Assembly: GCA_024742875.1 (NCBI GenBank)
Contig: JANSXP010000016.1
Span: 1 to 64,000, forward strand
DNA: 64,000 bases
Direction: 5' to 3'
DNA from: Planctomycetaceae bacterium
Lineage (GTDB): Bacteria > Planctomycetota > Planctomycetia > Planctomycetales > Planctomycetaceae
The notes below the pieces were generated by a model that was not told where the DNA came from, searched no databases, and saw nothing but the letters and a program-made list of their open reading frames with translations. This document shows positions 32,468-45,335 of this stretch, piece after piece; positions within the stretch are counted from its first letter, which is position 1; each line of letters begins with the position of its first letter. Made by a program: the position numbers and the translations under genes.

Positions 32468-35400
32468 ATGTCAGTGCGATTCTGGTTGCTTCCTGTTTTT
32501 CTGTGTGGTCTTTTGGCAGCATCGGCGGACGATCGGTCGTCGGCTCACCGGGAAGGGTTGCGTGAGAATCGGCCCGATGTCTGGGCGCTGCAACACGTGA
32601 CGGTTGTCGTGAAGCCCGGTCAGGTGGTGAGCGATGCGACGCTTGTCGTGCGAGACGGAAAGATTGATTCCGTGCAGCCCGGCGGCGACGTGCCGGCGGA
32701 CGCACGGGCCATCGATCTGTCGGGCAAAACAATTTACGCCGGCCTGATTGATGCTTATGCAGAAACTGAGATTCCGGGCTGGCAGTTGCAGCAGACGGCC
32801 GGTTACTGGAATCCTCAGGTGGTTCCGCACTTGTCCGTCGCCCGCCGTCTGACGGAAAACGAAGACGCGGCCGCACTGCGAAAGCAGGGGATCGTGGCCC
32901 AGCTGCGTGCTCCCGGGAATGCCATCATTCGGGGTCAAAGCGCGCTGGTGACCACAGGCACGGACGATCGCAACCATGTCGTACTGCGACCCGACGTTGC
33001 CCAGCACATGCAGTTGACGCTGTCTCAACGTGGCCGTGATCAGTATCCCGGTTCGCCGATGGGCGCTGTGGCGCTGGCCCGTCAGGCCATGTATGATGCC
33101 GGGTGGTATCGCGAGGCATGGAAAAGAGCGACCGCAGATACCGCACTGCCGCGACCGGAACGCAATGTGGCGCTGGCCGCGCTGGAGCCCCTGCTGATCG
33201 CTGAGCAGCCTGCGATCATCGAGTGCACGTCGGAACTGTACGTGCTGCGTGCGGATCGGTTTGCCCGGGAGTTCGGCCTGAGCCTGATTATCCGCGGCAG
33301 TGGCAGCGAGTACCAAAGACTGGAAGACATCTCGGCCACCGACCGACCGCTGATTCTGCCGCTGAATTTTCCGAAGGCGCCCAACGTCAGCACGCCCGAG
33401 CTGGCGGACAATGCCACGCTGGAATCGCTGATGCACTGGGATCTGGCTCCCGAGAATCCCGCGCGTGTGGCGGCGGCCGGTATCCCGATTGCTTTCACTA
33501 CAGATCGCCTGGACTCGCCTGACGATTTTCTGACGGCCATTCGCCGAGCCGTTGAGCGGGGTCTCAGTGCGGACGCCGCACTGGCGGCCATGACCCAGAC
33601 GCCGGCAGAGCTGTATGGCGTCACGGAACTGCTGGGATCCGTGGAAGCCGGCAAACTGGCCAGCTTTGTTGTGACCGATGGTGATCTGTTTGCCGAAGAC
33701 ACCGAGGTGGTTGAGACTTGGGTGGATGGAAAGCGATTTGAACATGATCCGCCTCCGGCCCGCGACCTGGAGGGCCGCTATGTTTTGCAGTTGAAGTCCT
33801 CAGGCTCATTGCCAAAGAAACTGTACGTGGAGCTGAAAGAAGACAGCGGGCGGATCTCTGATGCGGTGCTGCCCGATAAAGACGACGACGCCAAAGCTGA
33901 AGACTCTGCGAAATCCGGGACCGACAAAAAGAACGGCTCTGCCAGGTCGGGCAAAAAGAAAAAAGGTGAGCCCACCCCGGTCGTGGTCGATCTGCGCAAT
34001 GTGGCGTTAAACGACTACGCAGCCACCGCCAGGTTCGAGGCGAAAGAGTACGGGCAGGAGGGTATCGCCCGCGTGTCGCTGCTGTTCAGCGAAGTGGATG
34101 TCACCTCCGGGCGTCCCTTGGGTATGGGGCAGCTCGTCTGGCCGTCCGGCGATGTGTCCTCTCTGACATTCCTTGCAGCAGACGACCAGGCGGTCGATAT
34201 TGATTCGGACGACGACGACGACAACGACAACGACGCGGACGACGACGCAGACGATGACGACGCGGACGATGATGAAGCGGACGACAAAGGCGCTTCATTT
34301 GATGTGAACTATCCACTGGGGGCGTTCGGTCGGACCAAACTGCCGACACGCGGGACAGTGGCTTTCACACATGCGACTATCTGGACGTGCGGTCCGGCCG
34401 GAATTCTTGAAGACGCCACGCTGCTGATCCACGATGGCACCATTCAGGCTGTAGGAATCGCGGTGGACATTCCGAAGTCAGCGACTGTGGTCGATCTGAA
34501 GGGACAGCATATTACGCCTGGAATCATCGACTGCCATTCGCACATGGCCAGTGACGGAGGCATCAACGAAGCCACTCAGGCCATCACCTGCGAAGTCCGC
34601 ATTGGCGACTTCATCGACTGCACGGACATCACGATCTATCGACAGCTGGCCGGTGGTGTGACGGCGGCCAATATTTTGCACGGGTCTGCCAATCCGATTG
34701 GAGGACAGAACCAGGTGATCAAACTCAGGTGGGGAGTCAATGACGAACAAATGAAGTTTGCCCAGGCTCCCGGTGGTGTGAAATTCGCGCTGGGCGAGAA
34801 CGTGAAACAGAGCAACTGGGGAGACGACTATCGCACCCGCTATCCCCAGACCCGTATGGGCGTGGAAGAGCTGTTTCGCGATGCATTCACCGCGGCACGT
34901 GAATACGGGCAGCGGTGGGACGACTGGCGAAAGAACCGACGGGGGCTGCCGCCGCGGCGGGATCTGGAACTGGATGCCCTGCTGGAGATGGTGGAGGGTA
35001 CACGCTGGATCCACTGTCACAGTTATCGGCAGGATGAAATTCTGGCTCTGATCCGCGTGCTGGATGACTTTGATATCACGATTGGCACCTTTCAGCACAT
35101 TCTGGAGGGCTACAAAGTGGCAGACGCTATGGCCCGGCATGGGGCGATGGGATCCGCGTTTTCCGACTGGTGGGCATACAAGTTTGAAGTCTATGACGCC
35201 ATCCCGTTTGGCGGGGCTTTGATGCACGAAGCAGGCGTCGTTGTGTCATTCAATTCTGATGATGCCGAACTGGGCACACGATTAAATCTGGAGGCTGCCA
35301 AGGCCGTCAAATACGGTGGTGTCTCGCCGGAAGAGGCACTGAAGTTTGTGACGCTGAACCCGGCACGACAGCTGCGTATCGATGAGTATGTAGGCTCACT

Positions 35401-42066: not shown

Positions 42067-43251
42067 ATGCGAATTCACAAGCCCACATTGCTCCTGCTGT
42101 GCGCAATCATCAGCTGTTCCGGCTGCGCCACACAGTCGTACCAGCGCTCAGCCCCGCGGTCCCGACCGATCAGTACGGGCATCCAGCCAACCCCCGATGC
42201 CGGCCCGTCGCCGAGCATTGAATACCACGCCGATCCGCCAGCCGCTCCACGCCAGCCGGTGCCTTCACCGCCCGTGGCCGAGACCGAGGAACTGGAAGTG
42301 AAGGGCGTCGGGCTGTCACGCGTTCTGCATGATGCGTTCGGCAAACCGGGCTGTACGGACGGGCCGTGTGCGGATGAACCGTGTGTCGACGAGTCGTGTG
42401 TCGACGAGTCGTGTGTCAGTGAACCCTGTGTGGACCACGCGTGCAGCGATCACTCGTGTGCGGAAACGGCGGACAGCTGTGCCGAAGCCTGCGATTCCTC
42501 TGGCCACTGCGGCGAACCGGCTGCCTGTTTCCGACTGCCGAAAGTGCGGATGCCGAAAGTCCGTTTTCCGACTGTTCGCATGCCCAAAATTCGACTGCCG
42601 AAGTACAAATTCCCCACCTGCCGTTTGCCTAAGTGCAACCTGTCCCGGTTCTGCTCCACCGGCTGTGCGGAGCCGGCAGTCGATGGCTGCAACGACGATC
42701 CCTGTGCCGAAGCCTGTATCACCGATGAGCCATGTGGCGAACAGTCGTGTGCCGAAGGCTGCTCACAGAAAACGGATTGCCCCGTGCCTTCGTTCTTTGA
42801 CAAATGCTTTCGCTGCTTCAAACCGAAGGCCGAGTGCGGCGAGGGTTGTGTAGACGGATGTGGGGCCGTAGCGGCGGCAAACGAGTCGCTGGAGACCATC
42901 CCCGCAGAAGAAATTCTGCCGATGGAAGATCCGTTCGCCCCGGTGCCGGAAGCACCCGTGCCGGAGATTCCGCTGACGCCCGCACCGGCCACACCAGCGC
43001 CGATGCCCGAGACTGAATTGACACCGCAGCCTCAGCCCCCCGCTCAGCCCCCACAGCCTCCGGTCAACGAACTGGGTGCAGGCATCAACGACAAGCCCGT
43101 GCTGGCTCCGATGGCTCCCATGCCCGTCACCGGTCAGTTTGTGGAGCCTCAGATCTGGCCGCGTCTGAAGTACCAGCCTGGTCAGCCGCACGTTCAGGGA
43201 CGTCCGGCTTCCTGGCACGGCGGTGCGGCCACCACCTGGCAGCTGCGCTGA
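42067..43251 (+). CDS. Cys-rich lipoprotein built of five-residue repeats
   Basis: The 394-residue protein has a lipoprotein signal (LLLLCAIISCSGC, Cys20) and a Pro-rich spacer. Residues 96-131 are an acidic block with eight Cys exactly five apart (CTDGP, CADEP, CVDES, CVDES, CVSEP, CVDHA, CSDHS, C). After further Cys, residues 157-191 form seven basic pentads (LPKVR, MPKVR, FPTVR, MPKIR, LPKYK, FPTCR, LPKCN). A second Cys-rich part runs to about 265, and the last 130 residues are Pro-rich. The mature chain has 28 Cys beyond the lipidated one. I know no such family; metal binding or a disulfide-linked envelope layer is possible. A terminator follows. Confidence 0.88.
   Translation: MRIHKPTLLLLCAIISCSGCATQSYQRSAPRSRPISTGIQPTPDAGPSPSIEYHADPPAAPRQPVPSPPVAETEELEVKGVGLSRVLHDAFGKPGCTDGPCADEPCVDESCVDESCVSEPCVDHACSDHSCAETADSCAEACDSSGHCGEPAACFRLPKVRMPKVRFPTVRMPKIRLPKYKFPTCRLPKCNLSRFCSTGCAEPAVDGCNDDPCAEACITDEPCGEQSCAEGCSQKTDCPVPSFFDKCFRCFKPKAECGEGCVDGCGAVAAANESLETIPAEEILPMEDPFAPVPEAPVPEIPLTPAPATPAPMPETELTPQPQPPAQPPQPPVNELGAGINDKPVLAPMAPMPVTGQFVEPQIWPRLKYQPGQPHVQGRPASWHGGAATTWQLR
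42352..42459 (+). repeat. Coding repeat: acidic Cys pentads
   Basis: Fifteen-base units encode C-x-[DE/S]-x-x; two adjacent units (GTCGACGAGTCGTGT) are identical at the DNA level, showing recent duplication. Eight Cys codons recur at exact 15-base spacing. Confidence 0.88.
42535..42639 (+). repeat. Coding repeat: basic Pro pentads
   Basis: Seven 15-base units encode [LMF]-P-[KT]-x-[RKN]. DNA of the units differs (CTGCCGAAAGTGCGG, ATGCCGAAAGTCCGT, TTTCCGACTGTTCGC), so the amino-acid pattern rather than the DNA has been kept. The period equals that of the Cys block upstream. Confidence 0.88.
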
Positions 43252-43293
43252 TTCCTCAACGCGGAATCGCGCTGACCAACACGAACATCTGCG

Positions 43294-43326
43294 AACGCGA
43301 ACAGTCAACCGCTGCTCGCGTTTTTT
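43294..43326 (+). terminator. Rho-independent terminator after the pentad lipoprotein
   Basis: AACGCGA pairs with TCGCGTT, extended after one mismatch by CAG/CTG, with loop TCAACCG and a run of six T. It lies 42 bases past the stop codon and 21 bases before the end of the convergent gene. Confidence 0.82.
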
Positions 43327-43347
43327 CTGCGCAGTGAAATCGCTGTA

Positions 43348-44157
43348 TCAATCAGTGGCAGCCGCAGCGGTCAACGGTGGGCGAGGCCAGAAAGTGCTGG
43401 TGGTTCGCACATACTCCGCGTAGCCGGGTCGACGGCTGCTGATGTCTTTTTCCAGCATGCCGACGCCGGAGAATTTCATCAGAAACACGGACATCAAAGC
43501 CGGGCAGAATGCGGTCCACCCGGAAGCCCCACAGGCTACCGACATCAGAAACAAGCCCCACCAGATGGTGAAATCGCCGAAATAGTTGGGGTGGCGGGTG
43601 TATCGCCACAGCCCCGTATTCAGCACCTTATCTGCGTTTTCGGGGTTTGCTCGAAAACGGGTCAGCTGCCAGTCGCCCACGGCTTCAAACAGAAAGCCAA
43701 TCAGCCACACGACGCTGCCGACAGCAAACAGCAGGAGATCGACGGGACCATTTGCCGACAGGGCCTGCTGCAGCGGCAAACCAATCAGCCAGATCAAAAA
43801 GCCCTGCAGAAAGAAAACGGTGACAAGACTCTGCAGCCACCACCGCTGGGTTCCGGCGGCCCGCATGGCGGCGTAGCGACGATCTTCGTGGGCTTCCTTT
43901 CGCCAGCGGATTGTCAGATGCAGTCCCAGTCGCAGGCCCCAGACAGCCACCAGCAGCAACAGCACGGCGCGGAACGTTGACAGCATCTGCACAGAGGAAT
44001 TTGGGTTGGCCAGTACCACTGTGGTCGCCAGCACCACAAAGCCGGGGCCCCAAAAGGGGTCGACAATATCGGCGCGTGTCCAGCGGACACTCAGCAGCCA
44101 GGCCACGAACACGTAAACGGCGATCACGGCTGCCGACCAAAGGAGAATTGTGGTCAC
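43348..44157 (-). CDS. DUF1295 membrane protein (steroid 5-alpha-reductase-like)
   Basis: The start is placed at GTG 44157 because it overlaps the preceding stop (GTGA) and has GGAG six bases upstream; this gives 269 residues. The protein has six or seven membrane helices (LLWSAAVIAVYVFVAWLLSV, RAVLLLLVAVWGLRLGLHL and others), the loop VDPFWGPGF, and the family phrase NTGLWRYTRHPNYFGDFTIW with GKxxEK-like end (GMLEKDISSRRPGYAEYV). DUF1295 proteins are thought to be NADPH-dependent lipid reductases. It follows a cyclopropane-fatty-acid-synthase-like gene, an arrangement also seen in proteobacteria, which suggests joint membrane lipid modification. Confidence 0.87.
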   Translation of the reverse strand: MTTILLWSAAVIAVYVFVAWLLSVRWTRADIVDPFWGPGFVVLATTVVLANPNSSVQMLSTFRAVLLLLVAVWGLRLGLHLTIRWRKEAHEDRRYAAMRAAGTQRWWLQSLVTVFFLQGFLIWLIGLPLQQALSANGPVDLLLFAVGSVVWLIGFLFEAVGDWQLTRFRANPENADKVLNTGLWRYTRHPNYFGDFTIWWGLFLMSVACGASGWTAFCPALMSVFLMKFSGVGMLEKDISSRRPGYAEYVRTTSTFWPRPPLTAAAATD

Positions 44158-45206
44158 GAGGATCTCCGACGAAAGCGGTAGTGCGACACGTACCACTCAC
44201 GGCCGTCCCGCATACCGAACAGCTCGGCACACGCCATATAGAACATCCGCCACCGCTGCCGCCAGGTCTTCCAGTCAGCCCCGTAGGCGTCACGAAAGCA
44301 GGCTTCCACAGCCGCTGATTCGCGGTCCATTTTGGCCAGCCAGGCATTCGATGTTTTTTCGTAGTGCGTGCCGTCCCATTCGTACTGCTGCTCGATGGCC
44401 ATGTGATCCTGGCAGTGCAGCAGCAGATCACGTGACGGCATGATCCCGCCGGAGAAGAAGTGTCGCGCCATCCAGTCAGAAGAACCTTCATCTTCGAACG
44501 GATAGGCGTGTCGGTGGTGGCAGAAGATGTGAACGAACAGCTTGCCGTCTTCCGTCAGCCAAGAGCTGATGCGTTTCATCAGTTCCTGGTGGTTGCGGAC
44601 ATGCTCAAACATTTCCACGCTGACGACACGATCAAACGGGCCTGGGGGCGACAGATCGTTGATGTCGCACGTTTGCACGGTCACGTTGGTCAGACCACGC
44701 TGTCTGGCCTGAGCTTCAATGTGTTCCCGCTGAGAGTGAGAATTGGAAACTGCGTGAATCGTGCTGCCGGGATACTGCGCCGCCATCCACAGTGTCAGCG
44801 ATCCCCAGCCGCACCCCAGTTCCAGAATTCTCTGACCGTCGGCCAGCTGGGCGTGCTCACACGTTTTTCGCAGCGCGTTTTCTTCGGCCGTGTCCAGGTC
44901 GGTCGTCTGGTCGTCCCAGTAACTGCAGCTGTATTTCAGGTGTCGGCCCAGTGACGCCAGAAAAAAGTCGGCCGGCACTTCGTAGTGCTGCTCATTCGCT
45001 TTTTCCGGCACGTGAGCGACAGGGCCGGCAGCCAGCTCGTCCAGCCAGGCCTGCACTTTGTGGCCGCGGGATTCCAGTCCGTCCGCGTTCAGGTCTCGCA
45101 GACGTCCTCGCATCAGGTTCCGCATACCCGCCCGGATGACGCCATCGGGCAGGCGGCCCGATTCCGCGAGGGCAATCATGGAAGTGGCAATCTGAAAGAC
45201 GGGCAT
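44154..45206 (-). CDS. cfa: Cyclopropane-fatty-acyl-phospholipid synthase-like methyltransferase
   Basis: ATG 45206 gives 350 residues. Family motifs are HYEVPADFFLASLG, LKYSCSYW, the SAM motif ILELGCGWGSLTLWMA, FDRVVSVEMFEHVRNHQELM and FFSGGIMPSRDLLLHCQDHM, which place it in the CFA synthase (mycolic acid synthase-like) group. Such enzymes add a methylene or methyl group from S-adenosylmethionine across double bonds of membrane lipid acyl chains. The upstream extension to 45245 would need a TTG start. The next gene overlaps by GTGA, so it and the DUF1295 protein are made together. Which lipid it modifies is unknown. Confidence 0.88.
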   Translation of the reverse strand: MPVFQIATSMIALAESGRLPDGVIRAGMRNLMRGRLRDLNADGLESRGHKVQAWLDELAAGPVAHVPEKANEQHYEVPADFFLASLGRHLKYSCSYWDDQTTDLDTAEENALRKTCEHAQLADGQRILELGCGWGSLTLWMAAQYPGSTIHAVSNSHSQREHIEAQARQRGLTNVTVQTCDINDLSPPGPFDRVVSVEMFEHVRNHQELMKRISSWLTEDGKLFVHIFCHHRHAYPFEDEGSSDWMARHFFSGGIMPSRDLLLHCQDHMAIEQQYEWDGTHYEKTSNAWLAKMDRESAAVEACFRDAYGADWKTWRQRWRMFYMACAELFGMRDGREWYVSHYRFRRRSS

Positions 45207-45335
45207 TCTCGGGTCCTGTGCAAACGGCGTTGTCCGGATTCGCAAAGTGCGGCGGTGTCCGGTGACACGTCTGAACGTTTTAGGCCCGAGCCATTCCGTG
45301 GCCAGTGATTTCCCTGTGTGGCCGATGCTGCGCCG

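Follow-up and report, generated by a model that had tools for sequence, protein, structure and literature searches.

A family of predicted cysteine-rich Planctomycetaceae lipoproteins with conserved ends and a variable, repeat-bearing centre

Introduction

That planctomycete envelopes contain cysteine-rich protein is a long-standing statement, and the YTV proteins are the only cysteine-rich envelope components of these bacteria found in the literature searched. The gene P0001 raises the question of whether a repeat-laden lipoprotein from one genome belongs to this class of protein, and of whether its repeats are a conserved part of it. The gene lies in the window, the whole stretch of 64,000 nucleotides analysed here, which is contig 100 of a draft genome of 8.18 Mb in 168 contigs. 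A first-pass annotation reported eight Cys residues exactly five apart (residues 96-131), seven basic pentads (157-191), 28 Cys in the mature chain and a Pro-rich tail, all of which are confirmed. It also pointed out that both blocks have one period and named the protein a candidate for an undescribed system; comparison with relatives supports neither a meaningful common period nor a system.

Layout of the protein

P0001 has the marks of an exported, lipid-anchored protein (Table 1). Gly19 and Cys20 of the lipobox are invariant in all 16 aligned members of its family, and by reading and regular expression all 21 members have a suitably placed lipobox Gly-Cys pair, as expected of bacterial lipoproteins. 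Two more Cys lie within the signal peptide, Cys12 and Cys17; the second occupies lipobox position -3, which is unusual. All 28 Cys that follow Cys20 fall within residues 96-265; many have Asp or Glu, and some His, as neighbours, and they form no CC, no CxC and a single CxxC. Net charge changes sign twice along the chain, from -15 (residues 96-155) to +13 (156-196), then -9 (197-265) and -8 (266-394). AlphaFold, run on the genus alignment of only seven sequences, predicts no fold with confidence (mean pLDDT 43.7, pTM 0.17, residues 92-286 below 50).

Table 1. Features of the P0001 locus and of related loci (window coordinates unless a locus is named)
Feature	Residues	Position	Strand	Basis
P0001 gene, 394-aa Cys-rich lipoprotein		42067..43251	+	Open reading frame, ATG start; family profile matches in 8/8 genus genomes
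Lipoprotein signal peptide, lipobox C-S-G-C20	1-20	42067..42126	+	Sequence reading; predicted helix 5-20
N-terminal family motif (YHADPPA..QPVPSPP....VKGVG), conserved	53-82	42223..42312	+	Alignments A2 and A6
Acidic Cys ladder, 8 x 5-residue units	96-135	42352..42471	+	Exceeds shuffles; in 1/21 members
Perfect 15-bp tandem DNA repeat, 2.5 copies, within ladder		42380..42417	+	Tandem Repeats Finder
Seven basic pentads [LMF]-P-[KT]-x-[RKN]	157-191	42535..42639	+	Codons diverged; runs in 2/21 members
Second acidic Cys-rich stretch	196-265	42652..42861	+	
Pro-rich acidic tail	266-359	42862..43143	+	
C-terminal motif EPQIWPRLK, conserved	360-368	43144..43170	+	Alignments; W motif regular expression in 17/21 members
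Possible intrinsic terminator, hairpin then T run		43294..43326	+	Fold of 43285-43335: -19.2 kcal/mol, z -2.69
L019, secreted 255-aa protein, 58 Cys, CCAPAGCGxACEAT arrays around basic pentads		L019:1039-1803, contig C20		
M28 peptidase with PD40 repeats and PDZ domain, divergent neighbour		L004:5031-8360 (G003); L136:5034-8270 (G075)		

The annotation had recognised no family in this pattern, and library searches bear it out, with no informative match in Pfam, NCBIfam or the PDB. P0001 has no Pfam family at E<=1 and no match among PDB sequences, and neither P0001 nor the member from genome G003 matches NCBIfam. Among 16 members compared with Pfam, 15 have no match and one has a proline-rich match (E 0.008). 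Profile matches to the PDB, nearly all of them benzoylformate decarboxylases at E >=0.34, are taken as noise. In the literature on planctomycete Cys-rich wall, YTV and repeat lipoproteins and on Fuerstiella, of which few subscription papers were covered, no description of the family was found.

A family with conserved ends

By sequence, P0001 belongs to a lipoprotein family of Planctomycetaceae that is undescribed in the libraries searched. A query with the single protein matched two of 58 genomes, its own included. Profile searches reached 7/8 genus genomes at E<=1 and, at E<=0.1, 22 of 120 family genomes, with several spurious matches among the latter. With the 16-row profile and a cut-off of E<=0.001, 21 of 397 class genomes matched, among them all eight of the genus; all 21 lie within the taxonomic family of the source genome and fall into five genera, counting g4, whose matched genome (G010) was rejected as a non-member. 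The G099 match is outside the set of members compared. The 21 members compared comprise eight from the source genus, eight from g71 (one cut by a contig end), four from g65 and one from g48, which places the family in 8/8 Fuerstiella genomes and in three further genera. Five other loci were dropped: L044, L046 and L047 have lipoprotein signals but no Cys-rich centre, L175 resembles an outer-membrane efflux protein, and L045 consists of unrelated frames. Two more, L042 and L173, yielded no frame that satisfied the filter applied.

What the members share is their ends: an M-R start, the lipobox, a Pro-rich stretch with GVSxVKSVG, a Pro-rich tail and WPRL. Regular expressions find the VKSV motif in 17 of 21 members, as many as carry the W motif, and P0001 bears every mark of what we provisionally name the 'WPRL' lipoprotein family. 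The centre varies between lineages. The number of Cys after the lipobox ranges from 1 to 33 and is at least six in 20 of 21 members; the exception is the 190-residue member from G760, which has all but lost its centre and keeps a single Cys. In L174, the member from G680, the centre contains another kind of Cys repeat, about 16 residues long and PLCDRLRERLRGEGDH-like.

Origin of the five-residue repeats

The ladder places Cys at residues 96, 101, 106, 111, 116, 121, 126 and 131, a spacing of exactly five, and this regularity exceeds chance. When 28 Cys are placed at random within residues 96-265, a spacing-5 run of eight never appears in 50,000 placements, a run of seven appears in five of 50,000, and a run of eight at any spacing from 2 to 20 appears in one of 5,000. 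The pentad units read LPKVR, MPKVR, FPTVR, MPKIR, LPKYK, FPTCR and LPKCN; positions 1 and 4 are hydrophobic, and the block carries a charge of +13.

At the DNA level the two blocks have different histories. The ladder contains a perfect 15-bp tandem repeat, so part of it is a product of recent slippage. The pentad DNA is absent from the tandem repeats found by Tandem Repeats Finder, and among codon pairs for the same residue the codons differ in 36 of 51 in the pentads, as against 24 of 64 in the ladder. Diverged codons and the absence of a listed tandem repeat suggest that the pentads are older than the ladder and that they were retained as protein. Elsewhere in the window, positions 34206-34285 hold a GAC-rich tandem repeat.

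Neither block is a family feature. The ladder occurs in P0001 alone among the 21 members, the next longest spacing-5 run being four. Runs of at least two pentads occur in two of 21, with seven units in P0001, six in the G003 member and at most one in the other 19. The first-pass annotation tied its proposal to homologues that keep the spacing; for the ladder there are none, and for the pentads there is one among 20 relatives. Judged from these sequences, ladder and pentads are local rebuilds by particular lineages within a conserved frame and not a conserved device. A shared five-residue period as design is rejected, since G003 has pentads without a ladder and the family prefers a spacing of six; the common period of the two blocks is probably coincidental. 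The pentads of the source genome (G000) and of G003 may have arisen separately within the family: in a one-gene, midpoint-rooted tree the G003 member pairs with that of G004 and not with that of G000, although the support of 94/93 does not reach the starred level. When the centre was aligned in four ways, the G000 and G003 pentad blocks fell in register twice and out of register twice. A striking repeat in one genome can thus be a local rebuild within a conserved frame.

Rules of cysteine spacing and charge order

Two rules do reach beyond P0001: CxC and CxxC are avoided while a spacing of six is preferred, and a basic stretch stands between acidic Cys-rich ones. Across 20 members, counted without the lipobox Cys and without the one-Cys G760 protein, spacing 2 occurs 4 times against 40.9 expected and spacing 3 occurs 4 times against 40.7. 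Adjacent Cys are found 22 times against 41 expected. For spacing 6, 88 pairs compare with 39.9 expected (z 8.6). Spacing 5 is less enriched, at 53 against 40.2 (z 2.4), partly owing to P0001. With P0001 and near-duplicates removed, the remaining 15 members give the same picture: 3 against 25.0 for spacing 2, 3 against 24.9 for spacing 3, and 58 against 24.4 for spacing 6 (z 7.6). All three genera represented by at least two counted members show the spacing-6 excess, although homologous Cys are not independent; P0001, G006 and G126 taken singly lack it (in these per-member counts the G107 row includes the lipobox Cys). CxC and CxxC each total 4 across all 21 members. The Cys count is odd in eight of 21, one of which is truncated.

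The acidic and basic blocks that the annotation thought might pair are real, and their order recurs. In all 16 members tested, both flanks of the most basic 25-residue window are neutral or acidic in net charge, a result that choosing the maximum favours. Against shuffles the order is significant at p<0.05 in seven of 16 members, at the 0.01 level in six, and falls short in nine (the G000 row of this test includes Cys20). The pairing itself we infer.

Gene neighbourhood

Upstream, a GH10-like gene in the same orientation stops about 370 bases short of P0001, and a DUF1295 gene follows on the opposite strand. P0001 may stand alone because of this upstream gap, the opposite-strand gene downstream and the 3' hairpin with its T run. 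The hairpin is absent from the consensus-scan listing, and no sigma-70-like promoter was found for the gene. At window positions 43348-45245 (-), the DUF1295 gene adjoins a CMAS-like methyltransferase gene with slight overlap. No metal gene occurs among the three neighbours scanned (GH10-like, DUF1295 and CMAS-like).

Comparison of 14 loci of 8-19 kb (7/8 genus genomes and seven others; frames of at least 130 residues, E<=1e-12) leads us to reject an operon or system: no neighbour is common to more than three genomes, and none is common to the seven genus genomes compared. The close species G001, G002 and G007 have their entire surroundings in common. Across genera, the only gene that adjoins the lipoprotein gene in each case is a divergent one encoding an M28 peptidase with PD40 and PDZ parts, in three genomes of two genera (G003, G075 and G107, the last identified by BLAST only), which supports orthology; it does not lie beside P0001 in the source genome. 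The other cross-genus matches are a kinase (G000, G004, G126), the GH10-like gene (G000, G119) and one gene of G003 and G108, none of them adjacent to the lipoprotein gene in each genome.

Similar pentads in other secreted proteins

Pentads like those of P0001 also stand beside Cys in two further secreted planctomycete families. Searching the source genome with the pentad block leads to L019, a secreted protein in which CCAPAGC arrays flank KMPKLRLPKFKMPKLRLRKCR, giving the order Cys array, basic pentads (+12), Cys array. Relatives of L019 occur in six of eight genus genomes, its own included, and the pentads are present in all four copies readable across that part (G000, G004, G002 and G007). 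L019 and L055 avoid Cys spacings 2 and 3, but not adjacent Cys. Two secreted proteins, L070 and L072 (G000 and G004), have 40 and 39 Cys in their frames and an apparent HEAT-like middle segment.

The second group, which we name the YEWVLKKK family, consists of small secreted proteins of planctomycete family f2, presumably Isosphaeraceae, with CFKMPKFxMPKLxLPKC-like blocks. They were identified through a pentad query that matched seven of 198 class genomes, four of the seven in f2. Of 347 class genomes, 49 match the YEWVLKKK profile A5, and f2 accounts for 41 of these. Among 30 listed loci (L098-L127), 27 are readable: seven have pentad runs (L098-L104, four of which were seeds), three (L107, L112 and L115) have two LPK units six apart, and the rest have other sequence at that place, often basic. 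L058, a member, has no Pfam match. Full-length profile comparison finds no kinship between the lipoprotein and YEWVLKKK families (probability 0.4%). Profile A5 nevertheless matched P0001 over its Cys and pentad residues (E 1.0e-5), as well as the G002 protein with CCAPAGC arrays (E 4.5e-6), matches that would reflect either composition or a shared short module.

At E<=0.01, a phylum-wide pentad search matched 18 of 392 genomes; of the 25 loci listed, four are known proteins. Among fifteen others inspected, L085 and L089 have no repeat row, and the rest resemble, on visual inspection, frames of short DNA tandem repeats, mostly Cys-poor, and were treated as noise. In the source genome, L015 and L017 show a 15-bp tandem DNA repeat with an NVRQP frame that reaches the end of contig C107, and L018, L020 and L024 contain similar short DNA tandems.

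Proposed role and alternatives

From these features we infer a location, disulfides, charge pairing and a function for P0001. We give an even chance to the reading that it is a lipid-anchored, disordered envelope protein, a charge-block polymer that disulfides can cross-link, because a lipid anchor, many Cys with few CxC or CxxC, and charge blocks fit together in it. The lipid on Cys20 would tie one end to a membrane. Under the E. coli Lol rule, Ala at position +2 sends a lipoprotein to the outer membrane; by analogy, the Ala at +2 of P0001 suggests that placement. Pro-rich stretches would hold the chain extended, and the basic pentads would act as an extended, positively charged spacer. Acidic Cys-rich and intervening basic stretches could attract one another within copies, between copies and with other envelope polymers. 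The many Cys, mostly four to six apart and never adjacent in P0001, could then be oxidised to disulfides and stiffen the layer.

The lipobox of every member, the lack of a predicted fold, the non-random Cys spacing, the charge order, the similar layout of L019 and the precedent of the YTV wall proteins favour this reading, and among the roles suggested in the annotation envelope cross-linking would fit best. Against it stand the odd Cys counts and the three members without a spacing-6 excess, and the charge-block part is weakened by the nine members without significant segregation. Because G760 has a single Cys after its lipobox, cross-linking cannot be a function common to all members.

That relative, living without a centre, makes the strongest rival the idea of a low-complexity central insert that is tolerated and drifts, with function residing in the conserved ends (GVSxVKSVG and WPRL) and Cys-rich and basic repeats coming and going by slippage while their exact form is under little selection. 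The rarity of the ladder and of pentad runs, the different Cys repeat of G680 and the perfect DNA tandem within the ladder all suit drift. We nonetheless consider it unlikely: depleted spacings 2 and 3 and an enriched spacing 6 in several genera indicate selection on Cys placement, the pentads have kept residues while their codons diverged, and at least six Cys persist in nearly every member.

A surface adhesive or anionic-polymer binder is a more doubtful proposition, in which Lys/Arg pentads would bind to LPS, exopolysaccharide or DNA, with the lipid tethering the coat to the cell. The charge and hydrophobic pattern of the block and the recurrence of similar pentads next to Cys in three secreted families speak for it, but pentad runs are missing from 19 of 21 members (all 14 pentad-free members tested do have a basic window of other sequence), and Pfam reveals no adhesin domain. 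Metallothioneins use CxC, CC and CxxC clusters, and it is improbable that P0001 is a comparable sponge for soft or heavy metals, its ladder thiolates and acidic residues binding Cu, Zn, Cd or Hg in the envelope: acidic and His neighbours of 28 Cys fit such a chelator, as the annotation had suggested, but CxC and CxxC are rare, spacings 2 and 3 are depleted about ten-fold family-wide, and none of the three neighbouring genes scanned is a metal gene.

Beyond the envelope-polymer reading of P0001, we float a broader conjecture that is unlikely as it stands: planctomycetes may repeatedly build a 'vulcanised polyampholyte', that is, disordered secreted proteins with Cys-rich, mostly acidic stretches around basic [LMF]-P-K-x-x pentads, which would pair by charge and then form disulfides. 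If so, the same pentad arose in, or was shuffled into, three otherwise unrelated secreted families: the lipoproteins, the CCAPAGC proteins of the genus and the YEWVLKKK family of another planctomycete family.

Comparison with known systems

P0001 differs from several systems that its composition brings to mind. Metallothionein clusters are lacking, with no CC or CxC and one CxxC. Pentapeptide-repeat proteins, which form a quadrilateral beta-helix, have A(D/N)LXX-type repeats. By comparison, P0001 has no Pfam match to them at E<=1, no Leu/Phe centre in its ladder units and no predicted fold. Similarity to the keratin high-sulfur B2 proteins (PF13885) is confined to the second Cys-rich protein of the genus, below the curated cut-off; the lipoprotein has no match.

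The pentads have a parallel in periaxin. According to the available part of one report, its PEVK-rich region consists of pentapeptides with Pro common at position 2, hydrophobic residues at 1 and 4 and charged ones at 3 and 5, and is predicted to be extended and disordered (PMC7072810). Three of the seven P0001 pentads fit the form published there to the letter. Periaxin, however, is eukaryotic and far longer and, like AHNAK, joins a PDZ domain to a pentapeptide-rich tail; P0001 shows no PDZ match, and the likeness is taken as convergence, not kinship.

Other comparisons are with envelope proteins. Chlamydial OmcA is a lipoprotein. In the excerpts available, OmcA and OmcB are Cys-rich envelope proteins whose complex is heavily disulfide cross-linked in the elementary body (PMC6752827). 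Their likeness to P0001, as far as those excerpts go, is that of Cys-rich envelope proteins from a related phylum, whereas P0001 matches no Pfam family, theirs included, at E<=1. Closest of all are the planctomycete YTV proteins, also Cys-rich; one is encoded by an essential gene of Planctopirus limnophila, and a role in wall rigidity is suggested in the portions of the papers available (PMC8567305, PMC10632474). On the same partial sources, the YTV-domain wall proteins of Planctomycetia (PF07639) resemble the present family in being planctomycete-specific, Cys-rich and repeat-bearing. None of the 16 family members compared with Pfam matches the YTV domain, and a lipid anchor and charge blocks are additional here. 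The source genome itself has 15 YTV domain matches in five open frames on other contigs. The P0001 family is a kind of Cys-rich planctomycete envelope protein and not a new system. A lipid-anchored Cys-rich family with measurable rules, together with two secreted pentad families, adds a further testable set of envelope proteins to the YTV proteins.
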